This document shows, one piece after another, positions 1 to 4,089 of a DNA stretch of 28,644 bases. The position numbers and the translations under genes were made by a program. The stretch lies in the IMG/VR virus record IMGVR_UViG_3300021085_000154, positions 1-28,644 of that record; one strand, 5' to 3'. Position 1 is the first letter of the stretch. The number at the start of each line of letters is the position of its first letter. The notes below the pieces were generated by a model. It made no database searches and had not been told where the DNA came from. It saw only the letters and a list, made by a program, of their open reading frames with translations. This stretch comes from a virus.

Positions 1-1088
1 TCGTCTTTAATGTCCTGTGCAAAATTATCTCCAGCAGTAAATTTAGTTATGGCATCTGCGGCTCCTGAACCTGCTTTACCTAGGGCGAATGCAACAAGAC
101 CAGCTCCTAATGCGGTCATTGTCCCTAAGAATCCTGCCTTTTCTGGGTCTGTTTTTGGTACTAAATTAATTGATAATAATGTTTCAACTTCCTTTTTAAT
201 ATCCTCTGCAAAGTTTTCACCTTGACTAAATTTGGCAATTGCGTCTCCTGCTCCACCTGCGGCCTTACCAACACCAAATGCAGCCAAACCAGCACCCATT
301 GCAGCAAGAGCAATACCAAGTTTTGAACTACCACCTAATAAACTTTGACCTTGTTCAATTACGGCAGTCTCAATTGATAATAAACTAAGAACATTATCCT
401 TAATTTTATCAGTCCAACCTTCATCAAGGAATTTATCAACTCCACCAGAAACACCTGCACCAATACCCAATGCTGCAAGACCTATACCAATACCTGTCAT
501 TGCTAATGCCAAAGAACCACCATCAACTAATAAATTACCACCTTGTTTTTCAACCTCTTGGTTAATACCAATTAAGTCCATGATATTTTTCTTAATTGCA
601 GGAACATCCATTGTTTCAAATGTTTTGATTAGTTTGGGAGCAGTTGCAAATACTGCGGCAATACCAATACCCATAGCACCGATACCTATACCACCAACAC
701 CAACCATTTTACTAATCTTGCCCATTAAGGCACCGCCACCATCCTTTTTACTAGCTGTTGCTGTGGCAGTTGCAGTACTCTTAGGTAGTTTTTGCAATTC
801 ATTACGAATCTCTTCAAAGATGGACATCCTTTCTCGGTTGTTCTCCATACCTTGAAGCTTTTGTGAATCAATTATATCTAGGAAGTTTTCAAAACCATAT
901 ACCGTACGCGCTTGAAAGTCATTCATGACCTTCTGCATGTTTTTCATTTCTAATAAATGTCGCCTTGTGTTACGACCATCAATTGCAATTCTGTCAGTCG
1001 ATTTATTGTTCGACTCCATTACCTCAATTAATTGGGCAAATTCTGATTTACCGGGTCCAGGCTTTTTTGGTTTTTCTTCTTCAGCCAT
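1..1088 (-). CDS. Gly/Ala-rich repeat structural protein, candidate tape measure (partial)
   Basis: The ATG lies at 1088-1086, preceded by AAGGA, and the frame stays open to base 1, so about 362 N-terminal residues are visible and the C-terminus is missing. Residues 1-100 are charged and helical. An Ala-Thr linker follows at about 104-112. Then come at least four copies of a 63-68 residue unit: a Gly-rich hydrophobic helix (GAGLAAFG type), a segment like GDAIAKFSQGENF, and an amphipathic helix ending LLSI. It follows the gp26 chaperone locus and a small membrane protein on the same strand. In lambda-like phages the tape measure gene follows the frameshifted tail chaperones, and T4 places gp29 in the 26-51-27-28-29 cluster. 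Tape measure is therefore an inference from position and composition. A virion membrane-active protein is the main alternative. Confidence 0.5.
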   Translation of the reverse strand, partial: MAEEEKPKKPGPGKSEFAQLIEVMESNNKSTDRIAIDGRNTRRHLLEMKNMQKVMNDFQARTVYGFENFLDIIDSQKLQGMENNRERMSIFEEIRNELQKLPKSTATATATASKKDGGGALMGKISKMVGVGGIGIGAMGIGIAAVFATAPKLIKTFETMDVPAIKKNIMDLIGINQEVEKQGGNLLVDGGSLALAMTGIGIGLAALGIGAGVSGGVDKFLDEGWTDKIKDNVLSLLSIETAVIEQGQSLLGGSSKLGIALAAMGAGLAAFGVGKAAGGAGDAIAKFSQGENFAEDIKKEVETLLSINLVPKTDPEKAGFLGTMTALGAGLVAFALGKAGSGAADAITKFTAGDNFAQDIKD

Positions 1089-1103: not shown

Positions 1104-1481
1104 TTATTTACCAAATGCTTTACCAGCTTCTGATATACCAAATGAACCTAATGTTACCACCACAAATGATGTGTAAATTGTTTCAGATACTTTTAAATCT
1201 AAATCCCACACTAATGCAGTAACTAAATCTGTTATACCAAAGCACATCATTAAAAAGAATGATATAAAACCAATGATTGCTTTTTCATTTAAGTCATTAT
1301 CATCTAAAAATAAATCCATAAATTTTCTTTTACGAGGTCCTAATTGCTCTGCAGCTCTTCTAGCTTCCTCTTGCATTTCTTTGATTTGGTCTTCCTGTTG
1401 GTCTAACTTTTCAATCATAGCCATATACTTATCTAAGTCTATTTCTACTTCATTTCTACTGTTATCTTGGTTGTCAGCCAT
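1104..1481 (-). CDS. Small two-helix membrane protein, unknown role
   Basis: This 125-residue protein has a charged, coiled-coil-like N-terminus (residues 10-50, rich in Glu, Gln, Lys and Arg). Two hydrophobic helices follow, at about residues 66-92 and 100-118. The start codon overlaps the stop of the gp26 -1 frame extension (TAATG), and an AGGAG sequence lies just upstream, so translation is probably coupled. I do not recognise the family with certainty. The two-helix C-terminus ending in a Gly-Ser-Phe-Gly stretch and a basic tail resembles some small phage holins. Its place between a tail chaperone and a putative tape measure could equally mean a tail-associated role. Both functions are inference; the membrane topology is what the sequence shows. 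Confidence 0.7.
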   Translation of the reverse strand: MADNQDNSRNEVEIDLDKYMAMIEKLDQQEDQIKEMQEEARRAAEQLGPRKRKFMDLFLDDNDLNEKAIIGFISFFLMMCFGITDLVTALVWDLDLKVSETIYTSFVVVTLGSFGISEAGKAFGK

Positions 1482-2382
1482 TATCGTCTCCTATTATTCA
1501 TTTTCTGAATTCTTTCGTTTTCTTCTTTAATATGTTCCTGTAGTAAGGATAAATATATCTCCCTCTCCCACGGCATCATACTTTCTATTTCTGTCAGACC
1601 GTATTTATGATGTTGCATTAATGCAAAATTTGTTTGGTAAAAATTTTCCAAACTCTCATGCGAGAGGCTTATGTAAAAAAACTATTCAGTCCTCTTAATT
1701 CAACCTCGTGTTTCTTATTACACTTATCACATTTATAATCGGTCTTATAATATACTGCCGGTACCTCTTGTAAGAAATTCTGAACCTTTTTAAATTGTTC
1801 ACTACTTAAACTTTCAACAAATTCCTGTAGTTCCTCTTTACTTTGTGCACTAGCTTCGTGTACATTCTCATCATCAAAAATGGAATCCACACAATCCACA
1901 ATTAAATCCATAACGCCTTCAATAGAGTTTAATTTTTCTATATCCAAAGAACTAATTATTTCAATGGAAGGATATTTCATCTCTAATCCAACACCAAGGT
2001 CTTTATCAAGTAATATTGTTCGCTCTTGATTTTTATTTATTATTTCAACATCGTCAACATTAATTGATAGGGGTGTAAGCCCATCACATTTTTCATCTTG
2101 ACATTTAATCTGTATGTTCATATTTTCACCTACAGATTTTGCTCTTAATTGTAAAAACAAATATTCAATGTCAAATACAGTCAATTTATCCATATCTGGT
2201 AAATCATAACATGATTTAATGATATTTCTAACTGCCTTACTGATTTGCTCCATATCATTCGATTCTAAAGCAATCATTAATACCTTTTCCTCTCTTACAA
2301 GGAAAGGCCTCATACTAATTTTTTCTCCAGTAGATGGTAATTCAACCGTATACTGAGGAACATTCAATTTTGGCAAAGCCAT
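1481..2382 (-). CDS. gp26 -1 frameshift product (gp26 plus 64-residue extension)
   Basis: If ribosomes slip back one base on the run of seven T at the gp26 end, residues 1-236 continue into a 64-codon frame that begins Tyr-Ile-Ser-Leu-Ser and stops at 1483-1481, giving about 300 residues. The extension looks like real protein: helical, with MMPWEREIYLSLLQEHIKEE followed by a basic tail. It has no start of its own with a ribosome site: the first in-frame ATG is 1618-1616, with only AT-rich sequence upstream, and using it would drop the first 19 residues. The stop overlaps the next gene's ATG. In lambda and many other tailed phages, the tail assembly chaperone is made in short and -1 frameshifted long forms (gpG/gpGT). 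By analogy the long form would bind the tape measure. Expression is inferred. Confidence 0.65.
1653..1666 (-). promoter_or_regulatory. Hairpin downstream of the gp26 slippery run
   Basis: On the minus strand CTCTC-GCAT-GAGAG forms a perfect 5-bp stem with a 4-base loop. It starts 8 bases after the last slippery T, within the spacing usual for stimulators of -1 frameshifting. The stem is short, so its effect may be modest. Confidence 0.5.
1669..2382 (-). CDS. gp26: gp26-like baseplate hub subunit / tail assembly chaperone
   Basis: This 237-residue protein matches the T4 gp26 family (Pfam T4_baseplate type). It opens with a Pro-rich strand and an STGEKISMRPFLVREEKVLM segment (residues 17-36), followed by a helical body. 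Two cysteine pairs, C94/C99 and C218/C221, could form a zinc site. T4 gp26 takes part in assembling the central baseplate hub and is regarded as a hub component or chaperone. The ATG is preceded by TAGGAGAATATT, a good ribosome site. It lies downstream of the tail-tube-fold gene and directly upstream of the membrane protein. The last codons are AAT AGT TTT TTT ACA TAA, which form the slippery run described separately. Family assignment is firm; the exact T4 role is less so. Confidence 0.85.
   Translation of the reverse strand: MALPKLNVPQYTVELPSTGEKISMRPFLVREEKVLMIALESNDMEQISKAVRNIIKSCYDLPDMDKLTVFDIEYLFLQLRAKSVGENMNIQIKCQDEKCDGLTPLSINVDDVEIINKNQERTILLDKDLGVGLEMKYPSIEIISSLDIEKLNSIEGVMDLIVDCVDSIFDDENVHEASAQSKEELQEFVESLSSEQFKKVQNFLQEVPAVYYKTDYKCDKCNKKHEVELRGLNSFFT
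1675..1681 (-). promoter_or_regulatory. Slippery heptamer T TTT TTT for -1 frameshifting in gp26
   Basis: On the minus strand seven T fill the wobble base of AGT and two TTT codons, so P-site and A-site tRNAs can both re-pair after a one-base backward slip. The gp26 stop codon follows after a single codon. The reading frame entered runs 64 codons to the next gene. Confidence 0.65.
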
Positions 2383-2402: not shown

Positions 2403-3038
2403 TTAGCCTAGTATATCCAGTGTCGCACTGATACCACTTAATCCGGTACTTAGTGCTCCTTCTGGGACTAGTCTATCGTAACTCAATGTTACATTTAATT
2501 CCATGGGCCCGCTTTCGGTAGCCTGGTCCAAGTCAATACCATTTACAGAAGTTGGAAACGCATTAATGAGTTTCACTCCATAAATTGGTTTGTTTTTCAT
2601 ACTTAATTGCTGTATCACAACATCGCATGTAAAATCTTTTTTATATCCTGCTTGATATTTTTCTAAATTTACTATAGATGATAACCAATCATCCATCATT
2701 CTTCTGATATACATATCCTCGGTTACCAAGAATTTTAATTGTACATCTTCTTGTATTATTGCATAAGGGATAGGTACAGTTTGTTTTTCTGCTATATAAT
2801 CAATTGTTGTAATTTGTTGTCCTGGTATTGACGCACCTTGACAAAGTAATGATATATCCCTTGGGTCACTTATTAAACTTTTCGCACTTGCTCCTCCAGC
2901 GAGAGCACCAATTATAGCTGATGGATTTAAATTTAAAAGTGATTGTGTTGGTGGTGTAAATATAACATTAAACTTATTTGCTTTTGCTATACCACCTCGT
3001 TTACTGATAGTTGATTTTAATGTATCTATTGTGCTCAT
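2403..3038 (-). CDS. Tail-tube-fold protein, probable gp54-like tube initiator
   Basis: This 211-residue protein opens with an ISKRGGIAKANKFNVIF segment. The middle has LLCQGASIPGQQI and a long hydrophilic strand region. The end has DWLSSI, an AFPTSVNGIDLD segment and LNVTLSYD. This order is that of the gp19 tail tube family of T4-like phages and its baseplate paralogues. Because it sits among hub genes rather than beside a sheath gene, and because gp48 is encoded just across the divergent gap, I infer that it is the second tube-initiation protein (T4 gp54). T4 gp54 is longer at about 320 residues. It could also be a tube paralogue or tail completion protein (gp3). Its ATG overlaps the gp2 stop (TAATG), so translation is coupled. 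Confidence 0.65.
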   Translation of the reverse strand: MSTIDTLKSTISKRGGIAKANKFNVIFTPPTQSLLNLNPSAIIGALAGGASAKSLISDPRDISLLCQGASIPGQQITTIDYIAEKQTVPIPYAIIQEDVQLKFLVTEDMYIRRMMDDWLSSIVNLEKYQAGYKKDFTCDVVIQQLSMKNKPIYGVKLINAFPTSVNGIDLDQATESGPMELNVTLSYDRLVPEGALSTGLSGISATLDILG

Positions 3039-3648: not shown

Positions 3649-4089
3649 TTAGAGTACTTTGATGCCTAGATTTTTTAAAGTTTCTTCTGTCCATACCTGG
3701 AACTTCCAACCTTTATGTTTGGCATATTGGTCGGCCGCATACCATTTGTCTTGATTTTTAATATAATCTAATTGTTCACTGATATATCTTTTGGTTTTAC
3801 GTGACCTTTTCTTTGGTGGTTGTGTTTGAGATTTAGGTTTTATTTCAATTAAATATGTTTCCTTATTATCCATTTTTATTAATAAGTCGACATAATAACG
3901 ATGTATTTTCTTATCAACTTGATATCGGTATGGTACTACTATCTCCTCTGAATTCCAGAGTTTTACTTTTGGATTAGATTCGCACCAACGAAATGCATTC
4001 CTTTCCCATAGGGAACGAAACACTACTTTACTTGGATTTCCGATATACTTATCCGGATTTTTTATTTTGTATTTCCCTTTGTAAGCCAT
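3649..4089 (-). CDS. gp4: gp4-like head completion protein, nuclease fold
   Basis: This 146-residue protein matches T4 gp4 (also called gp50), a head completion protein needed before tails can join. The pattern is KNPDKYIGNP, then FRSLWERNAFRWCE at about residues 24-37, HRYYVDLL at 63-70, and YLIEIKPKSQTQPP at 79-92. Glu29, Asp68 and Glu82-x-Lys84 lie in the order expected for a PD-(D/E)xK type nuclease (TnsA/Vsr-like), as noted for this family. Whether cleavage is its virion role is not known to me. It is the first gene of the leftward operon, with a late promoter octamer at 4125-4118. The gene order gp4 then gp2 mirrors T4. Confidence 0.85.
   Translation of the reverse strand: MAYKGKYKIKNPDKYIGNPSKVVFRSLWERNAFRWCESNPKVKLWNSEEIVVPYRYQVDKKIHRYYVDLLIKMDNKETYLIEIKPKSQTQPPKKRSRKTKRYISEQLDYIKNQDKWYAADQYAKHKGWKFQVWTEETLKNLGIKVL

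Follow-up and report, generated by a model that had tools for sequence, protein, structure and literature searches.

A conserved T-run at the end of gene 26 and a probable -1 frameshift joining it to a gp51-like domain in a marine T4-like phage

The window analyzed here, a stretch of 28,644 nucleotides of viral DNA (positions 1 to 28,644 of IMG/VR record IMGVR_UViG_3300021085_000154), carries on its minus strand a gp26-like open reading frame (ORF; 1669..2382, 237 aa) that ends AAT AGT TTT TTT ACA TAA, with the stop two codons past the Ts. Direct reading places the seven Ts (T TTT TTT, 1675..1681, minus strand) in the phase required for tandem slippage into the -1 frame. From this heptamer the -1 frame stays open for 66 codons counting the two slip-site codons, or 64 past the two Phe codons (1481..1681 with the stop, minus strand). 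Its product, FFYISLSHESLENFYQTNFALMQHHKYGLTEIESMMPWEREIYLSLLQEHIKEENERIQKMNNRRR, is a T-like domain, the 'gp51' part of a long form whose short counterpart is gp26 itself (TAC-N, the lambda G analogue), and the frame closes with a TAA at 1483-1481 that forms a TAATG overlap with the ATG opening the next ORF. Two candidate stimulators flank the site on the same strand: a Shine-Dalgarno (SD)-like AAGAGGA (1690..1696), 8 nt upstream of the heptamer, and, after an 8-nt spacer, a 5-bp hairpin CTCTC-GCAT-GAGAG (1653..1666; 1666-1662 pairing with 1657-1653). The only ATG, GTG or TTG codons in the first 30 codons of the -1 frame are TTG 1651 and ATG 1618. A model working from the letters alone (the original prediction) had reported the phase of the T-run, the hairpin 8 bases after it and the frame of 64 codons ending in TAATG, and each is found in the sequence as it was described.

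The gp26 product matches PF12322 (the T4_baseplate family; E 2.9e-62, 210.7 bits, curated cut-off 24.5) and phrog_150 (baseplate hub; E 5.7e-68). The -1 product has matches to phrog_634 (gp51, baseplate hub assembly catalyst; E 1.4e-27) and to the C-terminal end of phrog_150 (231-282; E 2.5e-9). Runs of seven Ts or As are about six times rarer in the window than expected, with six found against 36.65 in dinucleotide shuffles. Because such runs are rare here, and because site, frame and peptide are widely conserved among relatives, the seven-T site appears to be more than a product of chance.

A protein search of 50,697 phage records with an E limit of 1, at which the weakest matches may be chance, recovered relatives of gp26 in 1,525 records and of the extension in 996, and in many of the latter the alignment begins with the first slip-site residue. 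We surveyed 344 sequences (the window, 80 IMG/VR loci near it, 20 regions of named phages and 243 further IMG/VR loci) with one script that searched each of the six frames for gp26 and for T. These sequences are not independent of one another, as they include close strains, one duplicate (KVP40, both L085 and L337) and named phages picked from hits; therefore, lineages were counted instead, at 90%, 70% and 50% gp26 identity (197, 82 and 22 lineages). The T domain adjoins gp26 in 330 of the 344 sequences, always in the -1 frame and never in frame 0 or +1. The remaining 14 comprise seven with T elsewhere, all T4-type, five with no T (four sequences ending 24-44 nt after gp26 and one T4-type fragment), and two in which gp26 is cut off. 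The heptamer T TTT TTN is present in 326 of the 330 assessable loci, corresponding to 193/197, 78/82 and 18/22 lineages at the three identity levels, and among the 80 loci nearest the window T TTT TTT occurs in all 79 that reach the site. The first Phe codon is TTT in 78/78 lineages, although TTC makes up 246 of the 854 Phe codons elsewhere in gp26. Stops interrupting the -1 frame were sought as evidence to the contrary; the frame is open from the heptamer in 326/326 loci that have one, and the conservation in relatives that the original prediction proposed to check extends to T-run, frame and peptide alike.

This distribution bears on two ways in which the two frames could be joined or parted without a ribosomal shift. 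Homopolymers invite indels, and a sequencing or assembly error might have split a single ORF; however, 330 loci, drawn from many samples and from named isolates, share the split, which already refutes this, and its probability is negligible. RNA polymerase might instead slip on the T-run, so that a subset of mRNAs joins the frames. The seven Ts of the window would suit such slippage, but 229 of the 326 loci have only six Ts followed by C, with the tandem-codon phase kept, and the bacterial cases in PMC5009743 involve runs of nine. We regard transcriptional slippage as highly improbable and set it aside.

Purifying selection acts on the -1 frame from the slippery site onward. In the first 17 codons past the site, which lie before the first common ATG, the ratio of nonsynonymous to synonymous differences (pN/pS) is 0.19 in the -1 frame versus 1.74 and 1.92 in the other frames, and substitutions at codon positions 1, 2 and 3 number 168, 100 and 388 (89 disjoint pairs). 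Homology of the T domain sets in at the slippery site, ahead of every start codon, and 47 of 78 lineages (in loci, 103 of 326) have no ATG, GTG or TTG from the opening of the frame to residue 20. Possible starts vary between lineages, the earlier ones not being shared. SD scores of -5 kcal/mol or lower are found at 2% of the -1 candidate starts before residue 20 and at 4% of those at residues 20-30, compared with 71% of gp26 starts, 58% of the starts of next genes and 12% of random places; restricting the candidates to ATG puts their share with an SD-like sequence at 4 to 6%. A relative (L002) whose junction is identical to that of the window, with the same two candidate starts, gives SD energies of -2.7 for TTG 1651 and +2.2 for ATG 1618, against -7.3 for the next gene. 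Candidate starts that are both varied and poorer in SD-like sequence than random places argue against separate translation of T. The lack of an independent ribosome site claimed by the original prediction is thus upheld, and the downstream gene with its own conserved start and ribosome site, which would have spoken against it, did not appear among the relatives.

Annotators of P-SSM2, S-PM2, KVP40, phiM12, Mosig and Melnitz nevertheless place a separate 'gp51' here, and an ATG stands at the LMQHH place in 52 of 78 lineages, as would be expected if T were a small protein of its own, begun at TTG 1651, at ATG 1618 or by ribosomes that reinitiate once past the gp26 stop. With a start at 1618 the conserved first third of the domain would be lost, and conserved coding begins at the slip site, ahead of all the candidates; together with the scarcity of ribosome sites, this makes independent initiation very unlikely, and we set it aside. 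The gp51 start in these public records is probably wrong. What follows gp26 has the features of an extension of the G/GT type: it lies in the -1 frame, has no ribosome start of its own and is under selection as protein.

The third codon before the XXT codon of the slip site encodes Gly in 78/78 lineages. The residue may serve the protein, and it is the choice of codon that points to an SD-like element: GGA or GGG is used there in 46/78 lineages versus 168/572 elsewhere in gp26 (Fisher p 6e-7, lineages treated as independent). Pairing of the upstream sequence with the anti-SD beats all 200 synonymous shuffles at each clustering level (18, 78 and 193 lineages), and reaches -5.8 kcal/mol in the window. 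T4-type gp26 also has Gly at the SD-like place (AGA GGC, AAG GGG). An upstream SD-like element kept by codon choice is possibly new, with a putative stimulating role; our searches, confined to open-access text, yielded no paper on an SD-like stimulator at the gp26/T junction. Downstream, a 38-nt segment folds across lineages at -5.67 versus -3.63 kcal/mol in synonymous shuffles (0/60 as low), and in the window a 28-nt segment is more stable than 488 of 500 synonymous shuffles. The frameshift cassette of E. coli dnaX consists of an upstream SD-like element, a slippery heptamer and a downstream structure, and the window presents the same elements in the same order. It differs from dnaX in that the shift would lengthen the product, in its heptamer, and in that the role of its SD-like sequence is putative.

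Because site, frame and peptide are conserved, the -1 frame is under selection before the first common start, and ribosome sites are absent, we consider it highly likely that a -1 frameshift at the gp26 T-run yields a short gp26 and a long gp26-T in this marine T4-like phage, as originally predicted. A ribosome translating gp26 would hold two tRNA-Phe on T TTT TTT, and a minority of ribosomes would slip back one base and, bypassing the stop two codons further on, read another 64 codons. The resulting short gp26 and less abundant gp26-T would jointly serve as a tail assembly chaperone for the tape measure, like gpG and gpGT, and the SD-like sequence together with downstream RNA structure would probably raise the slip rate. 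The slipping, its rate, the action of the stimulators and the chaperone function are inferred from comparison of sequences.

Xu, Hendrix and Duda reportedly described in 2004 the -1 frameshift that produces the G/GT tail assembly chaperone of lambda. As in lambda, the window would pair a short form with a presumably minor -1 extension, between the tube gene and a presumed tape measure gene. The likeness is one of arrangement and not of compared sequence; the site in the window and its relatives is T TTT TTT/C, gp26 is larger (237 aa) and comprises more than a chaperone-like N-terminal part, and an extra ORF precedes the long downstream gene. Frameshifting is also said to be kept in several T4-like groups, T4 itself using genes 26 and 51, in work by Vladimirov et al. 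from 2022. Vladimirov, Gautam and Davidson (2022) are credited in PMC12846349 with poly-T frameshift signals in T4-like phages, and in the PRFect paper (PMC10885494) with separate short and fused long chaperone genes in some of them; the title and these citing papers speak of chaperone genes identified in T4-like phages. Tailed phages, some T4 relatives among them, are known to have frameshifted tail chaperones, and the idea is in print; that work may or may not extend to this uncultured marine clade, to so wide a survey of IMG/VR or to a codon-choice test for an SD-like element. The chaperone locus of Pseudomonas phage Adele (Vandenendeviridae; PMC12846349) likewise has a conserved, stop-free -1 frame with a poly-T motif, but the motif is GTTTTT instead of T TTT TTY and the phage family is a different one. 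Beyond these items, literature searches and passages of PMC11821841, PMC5587285, PMC12671138, PMC10783043 and PMC12859696 yielded no description of the gp26/T junction in cyanophages or marine relatives. For scale, the molar ratio of short to long form in lambda is 30:1 (PMC5009743), and shift rates of 6 and 7% were measured for two HK97-like chaperone genes (PMC3711429).

The predicted structure of gp26 (pLDDT 87.2, 45 sequences) has as top matches in the Protein Data Bank (PDB), over its first ~90 residues, 3fgx, 2ob9 and 5ir0 (Z 7.7, 7.0 and 5.5; next 2.4). The second of these is the HK97 tail assembly chaperone, aligned over 83 residues at an rmsd of 3.9. It stands out only in this VIA comparison: Foldseek on the PDB returned nothing at E <= 0.001 for the gp26 model, and the HK97 chaperone only at E 2.8. 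No solved structure is related to gp26 by sequence below E 0.06, and most of the predicted viral proteins matching the model are themselves baseplate hub proteins of the gp26-like kind. Helices are predicted for the T part (pLDDT 86.7).

Upstream of gp26 lies a tail tube-family gene (2403..3038, minus strand; phrog_45 tail tube, E 4e-35), and downstream an extra ORF of 125 aa (1104..1481, minus strand), with a hydrophobic stretch and an SD-like sequence upstream of it, precedes a long ORF cut by the window end (3..1088, minus strand), a tape measure candidate by position only. Lambda has the order V-G-T-H, which the window mirrors with one ORF added. In phiM12 the counterpart of the long ORF bears the annotation 'similarity to phage tape measure proteins' and has weak hits to tape measure profiles. 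Here 'gp26' and 'gp51' are most likely two forms, short and long, of a single tail assembly chaperone, as G and GT are in lambda. The suggestion that the 64 extra residues form the tape-measure-binding part finds no support and is rejected: in lambda, according to PMC5009743, tape measure binding belongs to the shared G part and tail tube protein binding to the T part. Elsewhere in the window, 3649-4089 (minus strand) encodes a head closure gp4-like protein, a TnsA-like endonuclease by Pfam (E 8.1e-17) and a match to phrog_218.

Several observations weigh against a shift at this site, its stimulation or a chaperone role. In 223 of 326 loci some ATG, GTG or TTG precedes residue 20 of the -1 frame. 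The heptamer is missing from four Ackermann-type loci that still keep this frame: L089 and L092 belong to Ackermannviridae, L097 and L100 cluster with them in a tree, and the corresponding places in the four read ATT TTC, GTT TTT, CTT TTC or CTT TTT. In E. coli tests U_UUU_UUU slipped far less than A_AAA_AAG (PMC5009743). A control segment 60 nt further on than the downstream 38-nt segment also folds better than its shuffles, at -3.67 versus -2.97 kcal/mol (0/60), although with a smaller excess. The 5-bp hairpin by itself is weak evidence, because a 121-nt fold of the window is no better than shuffles (z -0.45) and 22 close relatives show no covariation for the stem, its middle pair being broken in nine; we reject the exact hairpin as a conserved element. 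The Z of 7.0 to 2ob9 is under 8, the level the tool calls safe. Finally, homology did not reveal which gene is the tape measure: profile searches gave the long ORF at 3..1088 no convincing family and did not establish it as a tape measure gene.

Public records treat the junction unevenly, and some miss gp51/T altogether. The T domain is unannotated in those of ACG-2014b, ACG-2014e and LPCS28 (L083, L084, L095), and that of Desulfovibrio phage 7757 (L096) is wholly unannotated, although gp26 and T are present. At the T-like domain of the four loci that lack the heptamer, records show a hypothetical protein or nothing. The small domain of L089 matches phrog_9633, of unknown function, and L097 (Aeromonas phage TSW001) carries right after the gp26 stop CCCCTCGACTCTAGAGGGG, a strong-looking stem immediately past the shift region.

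Profile comparison with hhalign links the gp26 family to T4 gp26 (99.5%, E 5e-23) and to the N-part of T4 gp51 (97.1%, E 6.6e-11), the T domain to the C-terminus of T4 gp51 (96.2%, E 2.7e-9), and T4 gp26 to T4 gp51. On these profile links, T4 gp51 is a paralogue of T4 gp26 with a T domain fused in frame; T4 gp51 is therefore built like the frameshift fusion, and T4 gp26 like the short form. By contrast with the window, the two T4 genes are separate, as the original prediction rightly held, and they lie on opposite strands. The Phe-Phe pair of T4 is encoded TTC TTT after GAG and another T4-type sequence (L343) reads GAG TTT TTT, neither of which is a slippery heptamer. In the window, a fragment of 28.6 kb, gp26 matches once, with T beside it in the -1 frame, and no second full-length gene with T in frame was found in it. 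In a tree built from 27 sequences of gp26 and of the N-part of gp51, T4-type 26 and 51 are joined (89/88) on long branches, a grouping that is only suggestive. The same tree places the window clade (represented by L002) just outside the group of cyanophages, Melnitz and Mosig (94/89 and 98/96), and this clade may be a separate marine lineage.

Sullivan et al. 2010 (PMC3037559) describe gp51 of cyanophages and a marine vibriophage as lacking about 200 N-terminal residues and as 'only ~20% of the length' of that of T4. Such a protein might be taken for a decaying remnant of gp51, but the missing N-part corresponds to gp26, the domain has a pN/pS of 0.19 and is conserved across deep lineages, and neither stops nor relaxed selection are seen in the surveyed relatives; decay is exceedingly improbable and is set aside. 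With the frameshift as the preferred reading, we tentatively propose, as a possibility somewhat short of even, that T4-like phages shift by a dnaX-type cassette (an SD-like element at a fixed distance around an invariant Gly codon, T TTT TTY and a downstream structure), that T4 genes 26 and 51 arose by duplication and loss of the cassette, and that cyanophages, with their 'truncated gp51', retain the older state. The frameshift by itself accounts for the 'reduced' gp51 of cyanophages and marine vibriophages, the rest of the protein being gp26, added by recoding, and the locus would be an apparently clean case of evolution exchanging recoding for gene duplication.
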